Origin: Peptostreptococcaceae bacterium VA2
GTDB taxonomy: Bacteria; Bacillota; Clostridia; Peptostreptococcales; Peptostreptococcaceae
Direction of reading: 5' to 3'
NCBI GenBank assembly: GCA_000686145.1
Contig: JMMB01000007.1
Location: 2,914,001 to 2,978,000 of the forward strand
Length of the DNA stretch: 64,000 nt
Shown here: positions 7,976 through 60,483 of the stretch, in pieces
Position numbering within the stretch: position 1 is the first letter of the stretch
Layout: each line of letters begins with the position of its first letter
Translations under genes and position numbers: made by a program
The notes under the pieces: model-generated
Database searches by the model: none
The model's input: only the letters and a program-made list of their open reading frames with translations
What the model was told of the DNA's origin: nothing

Positions 7976-8068
7976 AACTACTCCCGTCTAAATCTTTCTA
8001 TAGTACTTTCTACTATTATAATCATATTACAAATTATATAAATTAAAAAGTTATTTTCATGAAATAAA

Positions 8069-8122
8069 AAAACCATGAAGCTTCTTAATGTATTTCTACA
8101 TTAAATAAGTTTTCATGGTTTT
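8069..8122 (-). terminator. imperfect hairpin terminator after cooC
   Basis: Arms AAAACCATGAA (8069-8079) and TTCATGGTTTT (8112-8122) enclose a second short stem (TAATGTA/TACATTA). On the minus strand a T6 run follows. It ends the cooS-cooC transcript. Confidence 0.7.
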
Positions 8123-8166
8123 AAAAAAGTTTAGGATAGGCAAATTAAATAAATGCTTTTTACACT

Positions 8167-8937
8167 TTACAGTTGTATCAATCTATTTTTTATAGCTCTT
8201 ATTTGATTTTTTGCATTACTATTTATATCATATGGTGATTGATTACTTCGATCTGAATCTACAACATCTTGGCTATAGTAAACAAATCCTAGTAAATCTC
8301 CGTTTTCTAAATTATCACTTATAAACTCTTCATCTTCCTTATTTCTAATTTTATTACCAACAACAAACACTTTCTTAACACCTATATCACTTCCTAGTTG
8401 CTTAACTTTTCTATAGGTTTGTATACTTCTCTCACCAGGCTCTACTACAACTATGAAAGCATCAACTCCTTGTGCTGTACCTCTACCTAGATGCTCTATT
8501 CCTGCTTCCATGTCCATAACAACTACATCTTTGTTTTGTAGTATTAGATGAGAGCATAACCTTTTTAATAGCACATGTTCTGGACATACACATCCTGAAC
8601 CACCATAATCTACACTTCCTAAAGTAAGTAATTTTACACCATTATATTCTTTGCAGTACTTATCTGGTATATCATCTACTTTTGGATTTAATTTAAACAT
8701 TTTATTAAAAGTACCTGTTTGTGCTGCTGTTCTATCAGATATAAAGTTTTTCATCTCTGATATTGGTACTATTGATTCATATACTTCTTTTGTAAATCCT
8801 AAAGCTGATGCCAAGTTTGCATCTGGATCTGCATCTACTGCTACTACTCTGTATCCATCTTCTGCAAACATTCTTGATAGTATTGATGAGAAAGTTGTCT
8901 TTCCAACTCCACCTTTACCTGTTATTGCTATTTTCAC
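8167..8937 (-). CDS. cooC: CO dehydrogenase nickel-insertion accessory ATPase CooC
   Basis: A MinD-like P-loop ATPase that matures the Ni-Fe-S cluster of CooS. From the GTG start the protein is 256 residues: Walker A GKGGVGKTT at 7-15, Asp-rich DADPDANLA, and the metal-binding CxC motif in GSGCVCPEHVL near residue 110. The GTG at 8935-8937 is preferred over the ATG 9 bp upstream because AAAGGATG then sits at the right distance and the protein starts MKIAITGKGG like family members. It follows cooS by 24 bp and is co-transcribed with it. Confidence 0.93.
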   Translation of the reverse strand: MKIAITGKGGVGKTTFSSILSRMFAEDGYRVVAVDADPDANLASALGFTKEVYESIVPISEMKNFISDRTAAQTGTFNKMFKLNPKVDDIPDKYCKEYNGVKLLTLGSVDYGGSGCVCPEHVLLKRLCSHLILQNKDVVVMDMEAGIEHLGRGTAQGVDAFIVVVEPGERSIQTYRKVKQLGSDIGVKKVFVVGNKIRNKEDEEFISDNLENGDLLGFVYYSQDVVDSDRSNQSPYDINSNAKNQIRAIKNRLIQL

Positions 8938-8961
8938 GTTAATCATCCTTTGTCTTTATAT

Positions 8962-10881
8962 TTATGCATCTGCTTTTTCACATAGTTTTTCTTCGTATAC
9001 TTTTTCAAAATGTACACGTTTCTTCTCTATGTCTGCTATTATAGTAGCTGCTAATTCTTCTGGATTTTCATTAACTGTAAATGATGCTCCTACTTGATCT
9101 TTTAATTCTCCACAAAGTATTTCTACTGCTCTTGATGACCCACCAACAGGAGGCATTACTCCTAGGTATGTATCTATACCGCTTGCTACAATATAAGTAC
9201 CTATTGCAACAGCTTTTTCTGACATCCACTCTGGTGCTACACCTGCTAATGGTAAATCACTTATATCCATATCTACAAAGTTAGCTATAGCTGAAGCTAC
9301 ATCTAGTATACGGCTACAGTCAACGCATGATCCCATATGTAGTACTGGTGGTATATCAACTAGCTCACAAACTGTAGCTAGACCTTTCCCTGCATATTTC
9401 TTAGCTGCTGATTTTTTCATTAATCCAAATTTAGCTGCTGCTGAAGCTCCACATCCTGTAGTAATAACTAAGATATCATTTTTTATTAATTCCTTCATTA
9501 TAGTTGTATGTGCTAAATTTGATGCTACTCTTGCATTATTACACCCTACCACACCAACTACGCCTCTTATCGCTCCAGATTTTATTACGTCTACTAATGG
9601 TTTTATAGTTCCCTGTTTATCTATTTGAGCATTTACTACTCTGTCTAATTGTTTTATTATAGCGTCTACACTGTATCCAACTGTCGCACTTGATTTTAAT
9701 TCAGGTATAAGTACTCTTGACTTATCTCTGTTTTTAAAATTAAGTATTGCTTCTCTTACTATTTGTAATGCATCTTGATATGCATTTTCTTCTTTAAATT
9801 CCATATATATAGAACCTGTTATTTTTGCTTTTTTAGAAGTTGTTATAAACTTAGTATGGTAGCAATCGGCTACTCTACTAAGAGCTGGGAATATACATTG
9901 GACGTCAACTATCATTGCTTCTACCGCTCCAGTTACTAGAGCAAGTTCTTGTTGATGGAAGTCTCCAGCTATTTTTATACCATGTCTCATTGTTATTTCA
10001 TTACCTGTGCAACACATACCTGATATATTTATACCCTCTGCTCCCATTTCTTTAGCTAAAGCTACTAGTTCTGGGTCTTCTGTCGCTAATACTATCATTT
10101 CTGATAATGAAGGCTCATGACCATGAAGTATTATGTTTACTTGGTTTTCTTCTAATACACCTAGGTTTGCTTCTGTTTGCTGTGGTGTAGGTGTTCCAAA
10201 CATTATGTCACTAAATTTAGTACCTATCATAGATCCTTGCCATCCATCTGCCATAGATGTTCTTAGTGATAAATTTATTAAACTATCTATATCTGCACAA
10301 CATCCTATATGAGTTGAATGCATTACTGTAGCTATCTCTCTATCTATTGCTCTTGGCTCTATGTCAAGTTTTTTCCATATTTCTTGTCTTTTAGCTGGTG
10401 CATTTTTTAAGAATATTGATGTTCCATAAGGCTTCCCAAACTCCATTAACGCAACATCTGCAGCTTCATGTGCTATGTCATATATATCTTTTCCTTCAGT
10501 TTCTATTCCCCAGTCTTTTGCTAACTCTATTAATTTAGCTTCTTCTCTTATTTTGTAATTACCATCTCTGCTAGTTAGAGCCATAGTATGTGCTATATCT
10601 CTAGCGTGATCAGAGTGAGCTGCTGTTCCTCCAGCACACATTCTAGCAAAGTTTCTACCTACTATTGTATGGACATCTGCTCCACAAAGCCCTCTAGGTG
10701 TTTTTGGTGTTATTCTACATGGCCCCATTCCACATATTCTACAACAACCCCCTTGTAAACCAAACCCACATTGAGATTTCATAGCTATCTTTCTATCGTA
10801 CATTGTCTCTACACCGTCTTTTTCAGCTTTTTCTAATAATATGCGACTGTTTAAGTCAATAGTCATTAATTTCTTATCCAT
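8962..10881 (-). CDS. cooS: anaerobic carbon-monoxide dehydrogenase catalytic subunit CooS
   Basis: A 639-residue Ni-Fe-S enzyme that interconverts CO and CO2. Near the N-terminus the B/D-cluster cysteines are visible (QCGFGLQGGCCRICGMGPC and the following GLCGADV). C-cluster ligands appear in HIGCCADI, VVGCNNAR, TTGCGASAAAK and GSCVDCSR. The length matches monofunctional CODH. AAAGGGGG precedes the ATG. Only cooC accompanies it; no ferredoxin-like cooF, acsB or energy-conserving hydrogenase lies nearby, so the electron partner is not visible. A LysR regulator is divergently transcribed and may control it. Confidence 0.96.
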   Translation of the reverse strand: MDKKLMTIDLNSRILLEKAEKDGVETMYDRKIAMKSQCGFGLQGGCCRICGMGPCRITPKTPRGLCGADVHTIVGRNFARMCAGGTAAHSDHARDIAHTMALTSRDGNYKIREEAKLIELAKDWGIETEGKDIYDIAHEAADVALMEFGKPYGTSIFLKNAPAKRQEIWKKLDIEPRAIDREIATVMHSTHIGCCADIDSLINLSLRTSMADGWQGSMIGTKFSDIMFGTPTPQQTEANLGVLEENQVNIILHGHEPSLSEMIVLATEDPELVALAKEMGAEGINISGMCCTGNEITMRHGIKIAGDFHQQELALVTGAVEAMIVDVQCIFPALSRVADCYHTKFITTSKKAKITGSIYMEFKEENAYQDALQIVREAILNFKNRDKSRVLIPELKSSATVGYSVDAIIKQLDRVVNAQIDKQGTIKPLVDVIKSGAIRGVVGVVGCNNARVASNLAHTTIMKELIKNDILVITTGCGASAAAKFGLMKKSAAKKYAGKGLATVCELVDIPPVLHMGSCVDCSRILDVASAIANFVDMDISDLPLAGVAPEWMSEKAVAIGTYIVASGIDTYLGVMPPVGGSSRAVEILCGELKDQVGASFTVNENPEELAATIIADIEKKRVHFEKVYEEKLCEKADA

Positions 10882-46299: not shown

Positions 46300-47406
46300 T
46301 TAATTACTGTATTTTAAAATAAAATTACCCATCTCAATTGCACAGTCCTCACTTTGCGGATATACTCCGATGTTATCTCCATATGCATGACCAAACCCTT
46401 TATATAATACCGTAGTTGTATCGACTCCCACTTTAACTAGCTTAGATGCATAAGCTAAACATTCTACCTTTAAGAAGTCATGTTCTCCTACTGTAATAAA
46501 TGTAGGTGGTAAATCTTTTGCATCTCTAATATATGGAGTTAGATATTCATTTCTAACATCAGCAGTACCTAGAATACTTTCTAATCCTCCTACTAATCCA
46601 CTAAACATATCTAGCATCATTTCTACATTTTTTCTATGTTTTGGAGACATTTCATATTCATCTTTACTCCATTTGTAGAATTCATCTTCTACATTAGCCA
46701 TGTTTACAGTAGGATAAAGTAATAATTGTCCTTTAACCATGCCTAAATTAGCTTCAAGGTCTCTTGTAGTACAATATTGTGTTAAGTTTCCTCCAGCACT
46801 ATCTCCTGCTACAAATATATTTTTCTTATCTGCCCCTAAACCATCTGCATTATTGTAAATCCATGTTAATACAGAGTAACAATCCTCATGTCCAGTTGGA
46901 TATGGGTTTTCTGGTGCTAAACGGTAATCAACAGAGAAAGCAAGTATATCTGTTTTTTCAACAATCAATTTTACTAATTCCTCAACTACGTCAGGTGAGC
47001 CTCCGAAGAATCCTCCACCATGTATAAAGTAAAGAATTGGAGCATTGTCTTTCATAGTTTCAGACTTATAAATACGTACTGGTATTTTATATCCATCATT
47101 AGCTTCTACATATGTAGTTTCAATAGCAATCTTCTTTTCTACTATTGGTATACTCTTAACTTCACCAAACATATTTCTTAGCTTTCCAATAGATTTAGGA
47201 GAAGTATCCATCTTCATCATACTCTTAGGCATAAATTTCATTAGTGTAAATTGCTTTTTCATATCATTATAAAGACGAGGGTCCATTGCTCCGATTTCAT
47301 CACTATCAGGCAGTTTTTTAACTAAAACATTCGCTCCCTTGATATTAACTATTTCTTGTCTTTCTATAATCTTATCTAGTAATTCTTGTGAATATTTTCT
47401 GCTCAT
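46300..47406 (-). CDS. alpha/beta hydrolase (HSL/bacterial esterase family)
   Basis: A 368-residue cytosolic hydrolase: oxyanion-hole motif YFIHGGGFFGGSP, nucleophile elbow VAGDSAGGN, YRLAPENPYPTGHEDC between them, and the catalytic Asp/His near VGEHDFL and GFGHAYGD. GGGGG lies upstream of the ATG. It resembles hormone-sensitive-lipase-type esterases and has a paralogue (47532-48614) just upstream; both share a DPRxxxxM N-terminal segment. The substrate is unknown; co-transcription with PAP2 suggests lipid esters. Confidence 0.9.
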   Translation of the reverse strand: MSRKYSQELLDKIIERQEIVNIKGANVLVKKLPDSDEIGAMDPRLYNDMKKQFTLMKFMPKSMMKMDTSPKSIGKLRNMFGEVKSIPIVEKKIAIETTYVEANDGYKIPVRIYKSETMKDNAPILYFIHGGGFFGGSPDVVEELVKLIVEKTDILAFSVDYRLAPENPYPTGHEDCYSVLTWIYNNADGLGADKKNIFVAGDSAGGNLTQYCTTRDLEANLGMVKGQLLLYPTVNMANVEDEFYKWSKDEYEMSPKHRKNVEMMLDMFSGLVGGLESILGTADVRNEYLTPYIRDAKDLPPTFITVGEHDFLKVECLAYASKLVKVGVDTTTVLYKGFGHAYGDNIGVYPQSEDCAIEMGNFILKYSN

Positions 47407-47531: not shown

Positions 47532-48614
47532 TTAAAGAGATTTTAAATCGTTAGCTATTTCATTCATACAATCTTCTGCTTGAGGATATAATCCTAACTT
47601 ATCTATAAACGCATGGTCCATACCTCTATATCTTATAGTTCTACAGTCAACATTTGATTCTTTTAGTCTTTTTGAGTATGATTCACCTTGAACTCTTATA
47701 AAATCATATTCTCCAACTACCATTAAAGTTTTTGGAAGATTACTTAAATCTTCTGCTAGAAGTGGTGATATATATTTGTCTTCTGCTAGTGAGCTATCTT
47801 CCATATATAAACCTAGCATCGCTCCTGTATCCTGAAGTCCACAAACAGCCTTTTTAACAAGCTCTTCATTAGACTTCATTTCATATTCATCTATACTCCA
47901 ATTGTAATATGGAGTTTCTTTATCTGATATTATCGTTGCAGGGTATATTAATGCTTGATATTTTATCATGTTAGTACCTAAATCTCTATCTTTTAATGTA
48001 CAAACTGCAGATAAGTTACCTCCCGCACTATCTCCTGATACACCTATTTTATTTGAATCTACATTGATTTCTTTACCATTGTTATACACCCATTTAATTA
48101 CATCAAAGCAATCTGTAAACCCTTTTGGAAACTTATGTTCCGGTGCTAACCTGTAATCTACAGATATAACTACTGCATTAGCTTTTTTAGCTATTAATTT
48201 ACATGGATTCTCAACTACATCTACACTACCAGCTATAAATCCACCTCCATGTATAAATACTAATGCCGGCATTTTTTCATCAGACTTTGGTGAATATATC
48301 CTAACAGGAATATCTCCATTTTTACCTTGTATTATCTTATGAATTGTTTCTATTTCTCCATTAGCTAAGTCTTCATTGTCCCATCCAAAAATGCTACGTA
48401 TCATTCCTACTGGAAAATTATTATATGTGTAAGTTTTATCTGCTTTTTTATTTTCGTATGGATACTTATCTGGATTTAACATTACATCCATTACTCTTGG
48501 ATCTAAAGTCCCTTGTTCTTCTATATCAGGTACATCTTTTATAATTATTTCTTGACCATTTATTAATTCTACTTCGCTATTTGCCCCTAATTTCTTTACT
48601 AACTCTTTATACAT
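47532..48614 (-). CDS. alpha/beta hydrolase (HSL/bacterial esterase family)
   Basis: A 360-residue paralogue of the next hydrolase: HGGGFIAGSVD oxyanion hole, VSGDSAGGNLSAV nucleophile elbow, YRLAPEHKFPKGF, and VVGEYDFIR plus MDHAFIDK for the acid and His. The start is taken at ATG 48614 because GAGGTGG lies just before it, inside a 4-codon-longer frame. It starts 15 bp after pgmB and probably shares its transcript. It may de-esterify acylated sugars released with the GH3 enzyme (inference). Confidence 0.88.
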   Translation of the reverse strand: MYKELVKKLGANSEVELINGQEIIIKDVPDIEEQGTLDPRVMDVMLNPDKYPYENKKADKTYTYNNFPVGMIRSIFGWDNEDLANGEIETIHKIIQGKNGDIPVRIYSPKSDEKMPALVFIHGGGFIAGSVDVVENPCKLIAKKANAVVISVDYRLAPEHKFPKGFTDCFDVIKWVYNNGKEINVDSNKIGVSGDSAGGNLSAVCTLKDRDLGTNMIKYQALIYPATIISDKETPYYNWSIDEYEMKSNEELVKKAVCGLQDTGAMLGLYMEDSSLAEDKYISPLLAEDLSNLPKTLMVVGEYDFIRVQGESYSKRLKESNVDCRTIRYRGMDHAFIDKLGLYPQAEDCMNEIANDLKSL

Positions 48615-48629
48615 ATTCCACCTCATAAT

Positions 48630-49289
48630 TTATATATAGTATCTATTATTTTCATTAATTATATTAGTTAAATTTATTAATTCATCTAGGTTATAAGTAG
48701 CTTTATTACACTTTATAGCGTCACCTACTGCTGATACTTTCATTTTCCCATTAAGGGCAGCTTCTACTCCAGCTTCTGCATCTTCAACTACCATACAATT
48801 TTCAGGTAATACTTCTAATTTATTTGCTGCTAATATAAAAACCTCTGGGTCTGGCTTAGATTTTGTTATCATTGTACCATCTGCTATTGCATCAAATGTA
48901 TTTGATAATCCTATTTTCTCAAGTATTAAAGAAGTATTTTTACTTGAAGAACCTATAGCTACTTTTATGTTATTTGCCTTTAAATAATCTATAACTTCAT
49001 TAACTCCTTCTAAAATATCTGAAGCTGAAAGATTTTTTAAAAGTTCTTTATATACATTATTTTTTTCTTCTAATAACTCTCCTTTTTCATCTTGAGTATA
49101 TTTTTTATTAGTATTTTCTAATATTATTTCTAAACTCTCTGCTCTACTTACGCCTCTTAATCTATTGTTTATAGTTCTATCAAAATCTATTTTTTCTTTA
49201 TCTGCTATACTCTTCCATGCCTGATAATGATATTCATCAGTAGAAACTATAACTCCATCTAAGTCAAAGATTACTGCTTTTATTCCCAT
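48630..49289 (-). CDS. pgmB: beta-phosphoglucomutase (HAD family)
   Basis: A 219-residue HAD enzyme. Motif I FDLDGVIVSTDEYHY with the two Asp, cap-domain RLRGVSRAESLEIIL that is typical of beta-PGM, motif II IGSSSKN, Lys in KSKPDPEVFI, and motif IV VVEDAEAGVEAA. It converts beta-glucose 1-phosphate to glucose 6-phosphate. It lies 21 bp downstream of the GH3 glycosidase gene. This pairing suggests phosphorolytic or glycosidic use of a beta- or alpha-glucoside; no phosphorylase gene is in the window. Confidence 0.93.
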   Translation of the reverse strand: MGIKAVIFDLDGVIVSTDEYHYQAWKSIADKEKIDFDRTINNRLRGVSRAESLEIILENTNKKYTQDEKGELLEEKNNVYKELLKNLSASDILEGVNEVIDYLKANNIKVAIGSSSKNTSLILEKIGLSNTFDAIADGTMITKSKPDPEVFILAANKLEVLPENCMVVEDAEAGVEAALNGKMKVSAVGDAIKCNKATYNLDELINLTNIINENNRYYI

Positions 49290-49310
49290 GCTATTCTCCT
49301 TAAATTACTT

Positions 49311-51026
49311 TTATAATCTTGTATCCCACATACCACAGAATGGATCTACTGGGTTTTGACCTTTAAATTGACTTCTTCCCATTAACTTCTCAAATAGTGC
49401 ATCTAATACTAAATCTGTACTATGGTAAGTATTTATAAATGTTTTTACACGAGGTACATCTATTAAGTGATATGGATTTTCTACTGATATAAATATTGTA
49501 GGCACTTTTTCCATGTATATAGGTACATTAGCTCCCATTGGCTCATCCCATTCTATTCTTACTATAGTTTGGTTACTCTTAGTAGCTAAGTTTGCTACAT
49601 ATATTATTAAGTCATATTTTCCAACTACTGATGAGAACGGAGCAACCATTCCCTCAAATCCTTCTCCAGGATTGAATATATCTACTTCAAATCCTTCTTT
49701 TTCTAATTTAGTTTTTACTACTTCACATACACCTTGTCTTGTTCCATAGAAATCACTTGCTCCTGTCCCTACATAGTATAAAAGAACTTTCTTGTATTTT
49801 TTAGGTGATATAGGTAATACATCTTTTTCTTCTTTTACTAAAGTTATAGACTTATCTGCACATTCTTTTGACCACTCTAAGTATTCTTCTTTTCCTACTA
49901 CTGTTTTTGCATTTTCAAGAGTTGGTAAAAGAGTATTTTCTTCTTTCTTAGTGTGAAGTTTTAATGATGCCTTAAGTCCAAGAACTTTCGTTACAGCGTC
50001 ATCTAAACGTTCATCTGTTATTATTCCATTTTCAACACCTTTTTTCATAAACTCATAATCTTCTTCTAAGTTACGAGTAAATAAGAACATATCGCATCCT
50101 GCTGCTATTGCCTGTGGTACTGCTTGTTCTCTTGGCATTGGTATTGTCATACCAGCCATAACAGATGCATCTGTAACTACTAAACCGTTGAAGTTTAATT
50201 GTTCTTTTAATAATCCTGTAACTAGCTCTGGTGCTAAAGATGCCGGTAATATTTCTCTATCTTCTAACTCTGGGTTTAATCTTTTAGAATATGCTGGCTG
50301 CATTATATGACCTATCATTACAGTCTTAGCTCCTGCCTCTATTGATGCTTGGTAAGCTTCTCCGTAAGTTTTATCCCAGTCTTCACAGCTCATACTGTTT
50401 ATTGAAGTTACTAGATGTTGATCTCTTTCATCCATTCCATCTCCTGGGAAGTGCTTTATAGATGCTGCCATATCATATTTTTGAACTGCTTTTACATATT
50501 CAGCACCCATATTTTTTACTATTTCAGGATTAGAACCAAATGTTCTAGTATTTGTAATTGGATTTCTAAAGTTATAATCTATATCTATTATTGGTGCAAA
50601 TGCCCAGTTGATCCCCACTGCTGAACCTTCTGCTCCACAAACGTCACCTAGTCTATATCCTTGCGTATAGTCATTAGTTGCACCTACTTCCATAGGAGAA
50701 CCAAAGCTTGTTCCTTCTAAAACTGCTCCATTTCCACCTTTTTCTAAGTTTGCAGCTATTAACATTGGTGTTTGAGAATTTTCTTGTAAAAATCTATTCG
50801 CTTCTATAACTTGCTCTAGCGGCATAGGTCTACACATTATTCCTCCAGGCTTAACTGTATCTAATAAATTTTTAAGATATTCTTTGTCATCTGAGTAAGC
50901 TATTAAGCAAAATATTTGCCCTATTTTTTCTTCTAAAGTCATATTGTTTAATGTATTTTCTACCCAAGCAACATCCTTATCATTTAATAAAAACGGTTTC
51001 CCTTTAAGTTTACTTAATCTATTCAT
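49311..51026 (-). CDS. glycoside hydrolase family 3 protein
   Basis: A 571-residue cytosolic enzyme (no signal peptide) from ATG 51026, AGGAGG 7 nt upstream. The GH3 (beta/alpha)8 domain (~10-340) has KHFPGDGMDERDQHL, a conserved substrate-binding segment, and VVTDASVMAGM with the nucleophile Asp. The ~190-residue C-terminal domain resembles the flavodoxin-like GH3 second domain. Members are NagZ-like hexosaminidases or beta-glucosidases. The presence of KH(F)PGDG and the second domain favours an N-acetylhexosaminidase-like enzyme, but the pgmB neighbour argues for a glucoside. Substrate uncertain. Confidence 0.85.
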   Translation of the reverse strand: MNRLSKLKGKPFLLNDKDVAWVENTLNNMTLEEKIGQIFCLIAYSDDKEYLKNLLDTVKPGGIMCRPMPLEQVIEANRFLQENSQTPMLIAANLEKGGNGAVLEGTSFGSPMEVGATNDYTQGYRLGDVCGAEGSAVGINWAFAPIIDIDYNFRNPITNTRTFGSNPEIVKNMGAEYVKAVQKYDMAASIKHFPGDGMDERDQHLVTSINSMSCEDWDKTYGEAYQASIEAGAKTVMIGHIMQPAYSKRLNPELEDREILPASLAPELVTGLLKEQLNFNGLVVTDASVMAGMTIPMPREQAVPQAIAAGCDMFLFTRNLEEDYEFMKKGVENGIITDERLDDAVTKVLGLKASLKLHTKKEENTLLPTLENAKTVVGKEEYLEWSKECADKSITLVKEEKDVLPISPKKYKKVLLYYVGTGASDFYGTRQGVCEVVKTKLEKEGFEVDIFNPGEGFEGMVAPFSSVVGKYDLIIYVANLATKSNQTIVRIEWDEPMGANVPIYMEKVPTIFISVENPYHLIDVPRVKTFINTYHSTDLVLDALFEKLMGRSQFKGQNPVDPFCGMWDTRL

Positions 51027-51141
51027 CAAAACTCCTCCTAGTAATTATCTAATTCTTAATTTAATTTTAAGTGTTTTATAAATTAATTACCTTCAACATT
51101 TTTATCTAAACACTGTAAATTTTTGTCCTATTAATAAAAAA

Positions 51142-51210
51142 CTACCTCAAAATGTAATTTACTAATAATATTTTAGATTTTATTAGTAAGTTATATTTAT
51201 TTTGAGGTAG
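51142..51210 (-). terminator. long hairpin terminator after AraC-GH39 gene
   Basis: CTACCTCAAAAT (51142-51153) pairs with ATTTTGAGGTAG (51199-51210), with an inner TTACTAATAA/TTATTAGTAA stem, then T6 on the minus strand. The 51027-51141 stretch otherwise holds the GH3 upstream region. Confidence 0.85.
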
Positions 51211-51228
51211 CTTTTATATTTAAATATC

Positions 51229-53715
51229 TTATTTAAAATTTATTTCAAGCAATACTATCTCATGAGGTTGTAGTATTTTACTTATATCATATGATTTTTT
51301 TATATTTTCATTTTTTCTTGTATAGCTTGGGTATGATTTACTCTTTAAATACTCTACTTCTTCTAACTCTAAATTTTTTGTAGCTCCCATTTCAACCCAA
51401 GCGTCAAAAGAGCTTCCATGATTTCTGTTTACCCTATACTCCTTTATTTCATAATCTCCACTATCAATGTTTTCTAGTACGAAATTAAATTCTTTAGAAT
51501 TATCATTTTTAAATACACTGTATCTGTCTTCTTGTGTCATTTTTGATGTATCCATATATAAATATAGTTTATCATAATGGCAATAGTTGTATAAAATTAT
51601 TTGGTATCCTTTACTACTTTTAGTTATGTAGAATCCTTCCCCTTTATCTACAACTATATTACCTAACTTAGCTAATAAATAAAACGCATTATAGGCCGCT
51701 TTTTTTATTGAGTTGATTGTTATTATCCCTACGCCACCATGAAATTCATCTTTTGGTAATGGTAATTCTTCTATAAAGTCGCTAACAGCCCAGTATGCCA
51801 AAGACTCTGTACTATCCATATTCTCCACTATATTTTTTACTATGAATGCAGATTTATAGCAAGTATCATGAGTTAATTCTCTATGACTAGGTGAAGAATT
51901 CCACTCTGTTATATATATATCTGTATCTTTTTTATTTATCTCTTTTACCTTGCTCTTTAGTTTTTCTATATAATTGTGTAAAAAATTCTCATCTTCAGGG
52001 AGTATCCCATTTTCACTTAGGGAATTAATATCGATTTCTTTCACGTCTTTATCAACAATATAGGTATAGCTATGACTATATATAAAATCAGGATCTATGT
52101 TTTTGCTAGAGTAGAAATCATAAAATTCTTTAGCCCATTTACAACTTCCATCACATATAAAGTTTATACCTGGTGCACCTACTTTTATATCTTTAGATAT
52201 AGATTTTATAGTATTATAGGTATTTTCATATAAGTTATAGTATTCATTAACATCCTTGAAACCAAAAAGGTTAACTATTTCAGGCTCATTCCATACTTCA
52301 AAGTACCAAGTTTTAACTTCTTCTAATCCATACCTACTTATACAATAATTTATAAATGATTCTATTAGAGTGTTCCACCTATTTATATCTTTAGGAGGAC
52401 TTATTATTGTCGGTCTATCAAATATTATGTTTTGTTCTTTAGCTAATTTGCTAGGCATAAATCCTAATTCAATAAATGGCTTAAGATTAATGCTATATAA
52501 AAAATCAAATAACTCATCGAGCTCTGAAAAATCCAATACTATTTTTCCACTATTATCTTCATCATAAACTTTCATCTCATCATCAAATATTCCATGAAAT
52601 CTTATATACTTAAATCCAATTTCTCTTTGAATTATTTTTAATTGATTTTGTATATCGTTATTTAATCCATCTTTAGCCCTACCTATTGTAGTTAGTAGTT
52701 TCCAATTATGATTTATTTTTTCTTTCTTTTGACTTAAATCAATCACTACATTACTTTTACTGCTTACTCTTTTATCACTGCAATCTTCTTTTACATCTAA
52801 ATATTTAAATAATGAAGCATATTTTTTATCTTCATCTATTTTTACATAATTAAAACTTTCATTATTTACTTTCATTTCTTTTAAATTATTTTTTACTTTT
52901 TTCCTATATGAGTTAGGAGTTTGTCCATAGTTTTCTTTAAATAAATTAAAGAAAGTTTTCTCATTATTAAACCCATTATTAAGAGCAATCTCTGTTATTG
53001 ATAAATCGCTATAAATTAAATCTTTTACAGCATGCTCTAGTCTAATACTGCTTAAATATGAGTGGAAATTTTTTCCTATGTATTTTCTAAAAAATTTAGA
53101 CAAATATGCATTAGACAGATATTCTTTTTCTGCCAAGGTACTAAGGCTTATATCTTCTTTATAATTTAAATCTATATATTCTATAATTCGTTTTAATCTT
53201 TCTGAGTACTTGTTTCCGCTTTTGTTATATAAATCATCTCTCTCTTTGAAATTTCTGCACAATATGTAGATTAATTCAAATACTAAAGATTGTATCTTAA
53301 TCTCACAGTCTTCGTCATCTTTGCTATAAGTCCACATAGTCTTAGCTAGTATTTTTCTAATATCATCTACAATATGTCTATCTTCATCTTTAAATAATAC
53401 TGACTTGCAATTAAATTTTATATTTTCTATATCTTCATAATAAGGTTTAATAAAATCTATAGGAATTTGAAGTGCTAAAATTATGTTATCGTCATTAGAA
53501 CTTATTGTATGTACTTCATTTGCATTGATTACTATAACATCTTCTTGGCTTAAATAATATACATTATCATCTATAACAATATTTACATTTCCCTTTAAAA
53601 CAAATAAAATCTCTAGGCTCTCATGCCAGTGATTTTGTACATAGTTAACGCTATGAATAAATATATTCATCTGCATTTTACTACTAAATCTAATAGTTTC
53701 ATAGATAGAGCTCAT
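51229..53715 (-). CDS. AraC-type regulator fused to a GH39-like glycosidase domain
   Basis: An 828-residue fusion. Residues 1-~130 form a cupin sensor (QNHWHESLEILFVLKGNVNI). Residues ~170-270 hold two AraC HTHs (LSTLAEKEYLSNAYLSKFFR and ITEIALNNGFNNEKTFFNLF). Residues ~310-800 resemble a GH39 beta-xylosidase-type barrel with acid/base Glu in FEVWNEPEIV (~475) and nucleophile Glu in YITEWNSSPSHREL (~603), plus a C-terminal beta domain. Both catalytic glutamates remain, so the domain may hydrolyse or bind a glycoside as inducer. No signal peptide. GGGAG precedes the ATG. The GH3-pgmB operon downstream is a likely target. Confidence 0.9.
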   Translation of the reverse strand: MSSIYETIRFSSKMQMNIFIHSVNYVQNHWHESLEILFVLKGNVNIVIDDNVYYLSQEDVIVINANEVHTISSNDDNIILALQIPIDFIKPYYEDIENIKFNCKSVLFKDEDRHIVDDIRKILAKTMWTYSKDDEDCEIKIQSLVFELIYILCRNFKERDDLYNKSGNKYSERLKRIIEYIDLNYKEDISLSTLAEKEYLSNAYLSKFFRKYIGKNFHSYLSSIRLEHAVKDLIYSDLSITEIALNNGFNNEKTFFNLFKENYGQTPNSYRKKVKNNLKEMKVNNESFNYVKIDEDKKYASLFKYLDVKEDCSDKRVSSKSNVVIDLSQKKEKINHNWKLLTTIGRAKDGLNNDIQNQLKIIQREIGFKYIRFHGIFDDEMKVYDEDNSGKIVLDFSELDELFDFLYSINLKPFIELGFMPSKLAKEQNIIFDRPTIISPPKDINRWNTLIESFINYCISRYGLEEVKTWYFEVWNEPEIVNLFGFKDVNEYYNLYENTYNTIKSISKDIKVGAPGINFICDGSCKWAKEFYDFYSSKNIDPDFIYSHSYTYIVDKDVKEIDINSLSENGILPEDENFLHNYIEKLKSKVKEINKKDTDIYITEWNSSPSHRELTHDTCYKSAFIVKNIVENMDSTESLAYWAVSDFIEELPLPKDEFHGGVGIITINSIKKAAYNAFYLLAKLGNIVVDKGEGFYITKSSKGYQIILYNYCHYDKLYLYMDTSKMTQEDRYSVFKNDNSKEFNFVLENIDSGDYEIKEYRVNRNHGSSFDAWVEMGATKNLELEEVEYLKSKSYPSYTRKNENIKKSYDISKILQPHEIVLLEINFK

Positions 53716-54669: not shown

Positions 54670-57570
<2,901 letters not shown>

Positions 57571-57631
57571 TTAAATTTAGAAGATAAAAGTACATATATG
57601 TACTTTCATCTTCTATGATAAACTTCTATAT

Positions 57632-59609
<1,978 letters not shown>

Positions 59610-59643
59610 AATATATATAAACCTAATTTTTAGGATTTATATC

Positions 59644-60483
59644 TTACTTAGTACTTTTACTTACTACTCTTTCAACGTGAATAGTTAGATATAATTTTTC
59701 TTCATCTGTTAACTCATAGTTATATTTTTTCTTTATAAAATTAGCTACTTTTTCTATACAATTATATGCATTTTTATATTTAACCTTTATTACATCTAAT
59801 AAATCATCTTCATTATCTTCATATGATTTATTGCTAAGAAGCCTTTCTGCAAAATACTTTAGATGAGTAATAAATCTATAGTAATATACCGATTCTTCAT
59901 CAAATGTTATTCCATAATGATACTTAACAACATTTGTAACATCTTGCATTATTTGTGTTATTTCATAAATAATTTTTATATCCTGATCCATTTGTGCATT
60001 TACAATATGTAATGCTATAAACCCAGCTTCATCTTCTGGTAACCTAATTCCAAATTTTTCTTCTATATAATCTAAGGCTATTAATCCTATTTTAAATTCT
60101 TCTTTATAAAATCTTTTTATATCCCAAAGTAGGGCATTTTTTACATTTACTCCTTCACGAGTTCTTTCTATTGCAGCATGCATATGATCAGTTAAGGAGA
60201 TATAAATACTATCATTTAATCTTTTTCCTAGCTCTTTCTTAGCATATAGAATTATCTTATCTGATAACTCCATATAATTTAAAGGAATATTAGATATTAA
60301 TTCTTTGAATTTATCCGACATATTGGGGTCAGAAAGTTTGAATACCTTATCTATCATATCTTTTGGAATATGGTCTCCTGTACGTTTTTTAAAGGCTATT
60401 CCTCTTCCCATAACTACTATTTCTTTATTATTTTCGTCAGTCGTAATAACCACATTGTTATTAAGTATTTTTTCAATAACCAT
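59644..60483 (-). CDS. licT: BglG/LicT family transcriptional antiterminator
   Basis: A 279-residue protein. Residues 1-~55 are the co-antiterminator RNA-binding domain (MVIEKILNNNVVITTDENNK, GRGIAFKKRTGD). PRD1 (~70-165) has HMHAAIERTREGV and PRD2 (~175-275) has THLKYFAERLL and LTIHVERV, with the regulatory histidines phosphorylated by HPr or EII. GGGGGATC precedes the ATG. It is first in the bgl operon and should act on the RAT/terminator in its own leader, and possibly on the second RAT before bglP. Confidence 0.94.
   Translation of the reverse strand: MVIEKILNNNVVITTDENNKEIVVMGRGIAFKKRTGDHIPKDMIDKVFKLSDPNMSDKFKELISNIPLNYMELSDKIILYAKKELGKRLNDSIYISLTDHMHAAIERTREGVNVKNALLWDIKRFYKEEFKIGLIALDYIEEKFGIRLPEDEAGFIALHIVNAQMDQDIKIIYEITQIMQDVTNVVKYHYGITFDEESVYYYRFITHLKYFAERLLSNKSYEDNEDDLLDVIKVKYKNAYNCIEKVANFIKKKYNYELTDEEKLYLTIHVERVVSKSTK

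Follow-up and report, generated by a model that had tools for sequence, protein, structure and literature searches.

Several transcription factors sense through an enzyme or an enzyme-derived domain, among them the trigger enzymes and enzyme-derived regulators Ada, PutA and NadR of E. coli and the ROK and SorC-type sensors. The fusion protein described here would resemble them in this respect; none of them, to our knowledge, joins AraC to a glycoside hydrolase whose active site is complete. Some GH39 xylosidases have an N-terminal AraC-like domain (PMC8543862). In that paper the AraC-GH39 proteins are treated as an annotation matter, with the AraC part trimmed before the tree was made and without regulatory analysis. 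A literature search confined largely to papers available without subscription returned none on the regulatory use of an intact fusion. A Klebsiella-like stretch of 192 aa on fosmid-10BT, reported as "AraC/GH39" (PMC4730625), is probably not related to these proteins. The AraC regulator AryK of S. aureus has been characterised (PMC3922988), and its profile (NCBIfam NF047455) describes a cupin-AraC-barrel layout that is shared by our fusion.

The window analysed here is a stretch of 64,000 nucleotides from Peptostreptococcaceae bacterium VA2. The cupin, the two AraC helix-turn-helices and the barrel that an earlier note on this DNA had read in one open reading frame are confirmed by Pfam domains (Table 1). 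The cupin carries a metal-type motif, H29-W-H31-x3-E35-x6-G42, plus H69, and the helices between residues 191 and 278 of the AlphaFold2 model form an AraC/XylS double helix-turn-helix. The barrel matches the GH39 profile PF01229 with E=2.9e-78 (264 bits, for a cut-off of 26). The structure prediction for which the earlier note had called was built from a 39-sequence alignment and has a pLDDT of 83.7. Its residues 321–828 form a (beta/alpha)8 barrel with the GH39 beta domain, which can be superposed onto GH39 beta-xylosidases with a Z-score of about 42 and an r.m.s.d. of 2.2 over some 468 residues (Z 42, r.m.s.d. 2.2 and 468 residues for PDB entry 2BS9). In fold, glutamate pair and most pocket residues the barrel is like that of XynB1 (2BS9 and 2BFG), XynB (1PX8) and XylP81; it differs from these beta-xylosidases in being located behind a cupin and an AraC DNA-binding domain, and its glycosidase activity is predicted from sequence.

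Table 1. Features of the fusion gene and the adjacent operon, in window positions.
Feature	Positions	Strand	Basis
AraC-GH39 fusion regulator, 828 aa, single ORF, ATG start	51229..53715	minus	ORF call, Pfam, AlphaFold2
Cupin/AraC_binding domain, residues 26-148	53272..53640	minus	Pfam
AraC-type double HTH, HTH_18 residues 194-272 (spans both HTHs)	52900..53136	minus	Pfam E=1.2e-19, model
GH39 domain, full barrel, residues 323-797	51325..52749	minus	Pfam, structure superposition
E477 codon, predicted acid/base (WNEP, residues 475-478)	52285..52287	minus	alignment with 2BS9
E604 codon, predicted nucleophile (TEWN, residues 603-606)	51904..51906	minus	alignment with 2BS9
Intrinsic-terminator-like hairpin between fusion and operon	51133..51220	minus	
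Candidate operator GACAAAAAT-N12-GATAAAAAT, two 9-mers, direct repeat spaced 21 bp, past terminator	51098..51127	minus	
GH3, BglX/BglP (5VQD) orthologue, KHFPGDGMDERDQH motif, likely first gene of target operon	49311..51029	minus	
Beta-phosphoglucomutase, next gene	48630..49289	minus	TIGR01990 252 bits, above curated cut-off
Alpha/beta-hydrolase esterase	47532..48626	minus	PF07859
Second esterase, same cluster	46300..47406	minus	
PAP2-family phosphatase; kept in cluster in L012, L013, L148	45443..46288	minus	

The WNEP and TEWN motifs align with the catalytic motifs of 2BS9, with glutamates E477 and E604 within WNEP and TE[WFY]N, respectively. The further pocket residues H374, W475, N476, H548, Y550, W642 and E650 are all kept. 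Both catalytic glutamates are thus retained, as had been claimed, and at the level of sequence the active site is complete. Residue 609 is a proline, as in XylP81; the other GH39 xylosidases have a tyrosine there (PMC8543862).

The architecture is not unique to the window. We collected 62 distinct AraC-GH39 fusions, which are widespread in Bacillota, with hosts in Peptostreptococcaceae, Paenibacillaceae, Tissierella, Lederbergia, Niallia, Enterococcus and Listeria. The closest named relative is that of Faecalimicrobium dakarense (Peptostreptococcaceae), at 78% identity. In the barrel tree the label "fusion" requires three changes, and a starred branch parts the single-domain GH39s from all fusions except L032 and L033. 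At four loci (L033, L031, L037 and G516:C7) the N-terminal part and the barrel lie in separate open reading frames, where frameshifts are possible.

Conservation of the catalytic glutamates across the family, which the earlier note had proposed to check, is found in part: E477 and E604, together with N476 and H548, are kept in 45 of the 62 fusions and lost in 17, all of these without a GH3 neighbour. Nine pocket positions behave almost as one unit, being present nine out of nine in all 34 GH3-linked fusions, while the 17 catalytically dead fusions retain between none and eight. The dead forms are varied: the nucleophile is changed from glutamate to glycine in L005/L138 and the acid/base from glutamate to tyrosine in L006/L139, L195 and L196, while in L123–L125, of 662–690 aa, the middle of the barrel is deleted. 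The trees require five to six changes between the intact and lost states, of which the starred branches force three to four. The earlier note's view that sensors derived from enzymes as a rule lose catalysis therefore holds within this family, as AryK-type and other fusions show. As a separate observation, L005 and L138 (positions 7986-10517) have IGWN in place of TEWN and all other tested pocket residues, which makes them candidates for a dead but binding barrel.

That enzyme-dead fusions have retained the barrel in at least three to five lineages means that the architecture can persist without catalysis. This favours a pure glycoside receptor, in which the pocket binds its ligand and any catalysis is a by-product or proceeds very slowly, a reading that we regard as a real, if tentative, possibility. 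It sits less well with the glutamate pair, which is present in 34 of 34 GH3-linked fusions, with aspartate, glutamine or any other substitution in none, a stricter conservation than binding alone normally needs. The invariant pair leans towards catalysis mattering, although strong ligand recognition could explain the same pattern.

The ratio of barrel to helix-turn-helix identity lies between 0.85 and 1.24 in intact fusions and falls below 0.85 in 12 of the 17 dead ones, from which it appears that the barrel decays once catalysis is lost. This collapse of constraint, and the tracking of GH3 context by the intact pocket, make it very improbable that the barrel is a structural passenger and the cupin the sole sensor, even if L123–L125 persist despite the loss of the barrel middle. 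The cupin itself is conserved alongside the barrel: of its HxH-E-H motif, H31, E35 and H69 are present in 44 of the 45 intact fusions and H29 in 42. This joint conservation of the two domains is what generation of the inducer in cis has in its favour, whereby the barrel would cleave an imported glycoside, the protein's own cupin would bind the monosaccharide and the protein would then activate. Most dead fusions also keep the cupin motif, however, and AraC cupins of the HxH-E-H kind are common without any glycoside hydrolase, so that we consider this rather unlikely.

The state of the pocket follows the neighbouring genes. A GH3 gene is present within 5 kb of 34 of the 45 intact fusions and of none of the 17 dead ones (Fisher p=2.9e-8). 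One locus scan used six patterns, one of them containing WNE, and was therefore biased toward intact copies; among the 38 loci from the profile and protein search, window included, there are 15 intact fusions with and six without GH3, and none and 17 dead ones, respectively (p=4.4e-6). Five later plasmid-borne fusions, in annotated records called merely "helix-turn-helix domain-containing protein", obey the same split: the two with GH3 are intact and the three without are dead. Paralogues within one genome divide alike, with L148 intact beside GH3 and L141 dead in genome G004, and L202 intact beside GH3 and L210 dead in G527. Independent contrasts of pocket state against GH3 number just three to five, none contrary, and are not significant, the correlation being phylogenetically clumped.

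Among the intact fusions scored as lacking GH3, L208 has a divergent GH3 that is seen by Pfam, five adjoin surface-protein genes and L205 adjoins a beta-lactamase-fold gene, none of these being glycoside genes, while others adjoin GH10, GH51-type or sugar-transporter genes. The neighbours of dead fusions are an M20 peptidase with an MFS gene, Gfo/Idh/MocA oxidoreductases, BCCT transporters, MATE pumps and surface proteins. The pocket is thus lost only away from GH3 and strictly kept beside it, which argues that it meets a glycoside. Since it is intact beside sugar-breakdown genes and decayed elsewhere, it is probably the sugar sensor of the switch, reading an imported glycoside. Within one regulator architecture, nature supplies the stages between complete enzyme and dead sensor, and catalysis is lost as the genomic context changes. 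This makes a long-standing question directly testable, namely how a sensor derived from an enzyme fares, for better or worse, once catalysis is gone.

Two smaller observations concern individual branches. In the subclade of L015, L022, L030, L147 and L193 (intact) and L139, L195 and L196 (dead), the examined members adjoin large surface-type proteins, that beside L193 containing collagen-binding and isopeptide domains. L123 and L124, which lack the barrel middle, adjoin MATE-type transporters.

The GH3-pgmB-esterase operon is located directly downstream of the fusion in the direction of transcription, separated from it by the terminator-like hairpin. The stretch 51128–51222 folds at -26.2 kcal/mol (z -6.5), and such a hairpin is found between fusion and operon in 27 of 31 GH3-linked loci, compared with 6% of shuffles. 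Just past it lies the direct repeat that is the candidate operator, which has a single match in the genome within three mismatches. Around the repeat, a block of 31 nt is the same in L012 as in the window and differs at one position in L148, with diverged flanks; identity at four-fold sites in the same comparisons is 69% and 83%, respectively. A 44-nt bipartite motif is common to 17 thinned loci with a log-likelihood of 268.7, against at most 124 in Markov-resampled controls, a gain that overstates the independent evidence because the motif is partly homologous sequence. On the 5' side of the fusion gene no conserved block extends beyond the last 40 nt or so, a consensus promoter scan gave nothing above shuffles, and an Rfam scan of 43–64 kb had no match.

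With a terminator and a shared motif between it and the operon, the fusion seems to be an activator that is transcribed separately and acts locally. We infer that the barrel is made at regulator dosage, that the protein binds the predicted operator at 51098–51127 and, by analogy with AraC, that it activates the adjacent operon locally. The 21-bp-spaced repeat behind the terminator also supports the earlier proposal that this operon is the target. Its position bears on whether the protein is instead a bifunctional catabolic enzyme, with the barrel as the working beta-xylosidase or glucosidase of the pathway and regulation secondary. The full active site would suit this, as would the genome search, which found no second GH39 in the host and leaves the fusion as the only one; but in 27 of 31 loci a terminator of its own separates the fusion from the operon, and the operons have GH3 enzymes of their own; we judge this role quite improbable.

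Beta-phosphoglucomutase turns beta-Glc-1-P into Glc-6-P, and by its sequence the second gene of the operon is consistent with phosphorolysis to beta-Glc-1-P by the GH3 protein. The latter aligns with 5VQD over residues 8–572 (521 bits), its KHFPGDGMDERDQH with the KHFPGDGVDYRDQH that forms the His-Asp acid/base motif, as expected of a BglP. The closest solved relatives of the barrel are beta-xylosidases, but the GH3 protein next to it is orthologous to a beta-glucoside phosphorylase. Such GH3 phosphorylases make beta-glycosyl phosphates from beta-glycosides, and just two characterised ones are given in a review (PMC8950772). The native pairing at 48630–51029 of a retaining GH3 beta-glucoside phosphorylase with a beta-phosphoglucomutase supplies an operon context for these rare enzymes. 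Upstream, at 54670–60483, the window contains two GH1 genes, a beta-glucoside PTS and an antiterminator-type regulator; regulation of these genes by the same repeat was considered and rejected, the genome having no second site within three mismatches.

Taken as a whole, the fusion is likely to be a local AraC-type activator, whose carboxy-terminal GH39 barrel senses a glycoside and has kept its active site whole. Transcribed alone, it would bind the 21-bp-spaced direct repeat just 3' of its own terminator. An imported glycoside would fill the GH39 pocket, probably being slowly turned over there, and occupancy would switch on the GH3 beta-glucoside phosphorylase, beta-phosphoglucomutase, esterases and PAP2 phosphatase. 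The cupin may sense a second ligand, for instance the released monosaccharide. That the ligand is such a glycoside, and that filling the barrel affects the binding of DNA, is what we infer. The earlier note had suggested a self-limiting timer, in which the barrel hydrolyses the inducer and induction ends as it is consumed. The catalytic pair and every pocket residue are intact, and separate transcription implies a regulator dosage at which slow turnover could matter for signalling; at that same dosage, however, the barrel would be a poor competitor of the GH3 phosphorylase, which the induced operon supplies and which acts on substrates of the same class, and such a timer seems to us quite unlikely. 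Pure sensing and generation of the inducer in cis fit the data as well as destruction of the inducer does.

A more far-reaching version of the glycoside sensor, which we put forward as a somewhat doubtful conjecture, is that catalysis is itself the signal: a glycosyl-enzyme intermediate formed in the retaining GH39 site, or a sugar released to the protein's own cupin, would set DNA binding, so that an AraC activator must turn over its inducer. Sister lineages would have dropped catalysis when their targets ceased being glycoside operons, yielding regulators such as AryK. The window fusion scores 214 bits against NF047455, below the curated cut-off of 850, and is a relative of AryK rather than AryK. 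No AryK above this cut-off is present in the sampled genomes, which leaves L122/L127 as the basis of the AryK link: it is a full-length match to the AryK profile (503 bits) and is also recognised as GH39 by Pfam (E=2.8e-14). In this lineage the nucleophile and the pocket are lost, and the gene is beside M20 peptidase and MFS genes, not GH3. Because L122/L127 connects the full-length AryK profile to Pfam GH39, AryK itself would carry a decayed GH39 barrel, linking the S. aureus regulator to a glycosidase ancestor.

The AryK-type fusions with a decayed barrel (L122/L127, L146, L197, L211 and L222) adjoin M20 peptidase and MFS genes, and the one from a Listeria monocytogenes record (L222) also adjoins inlJ.
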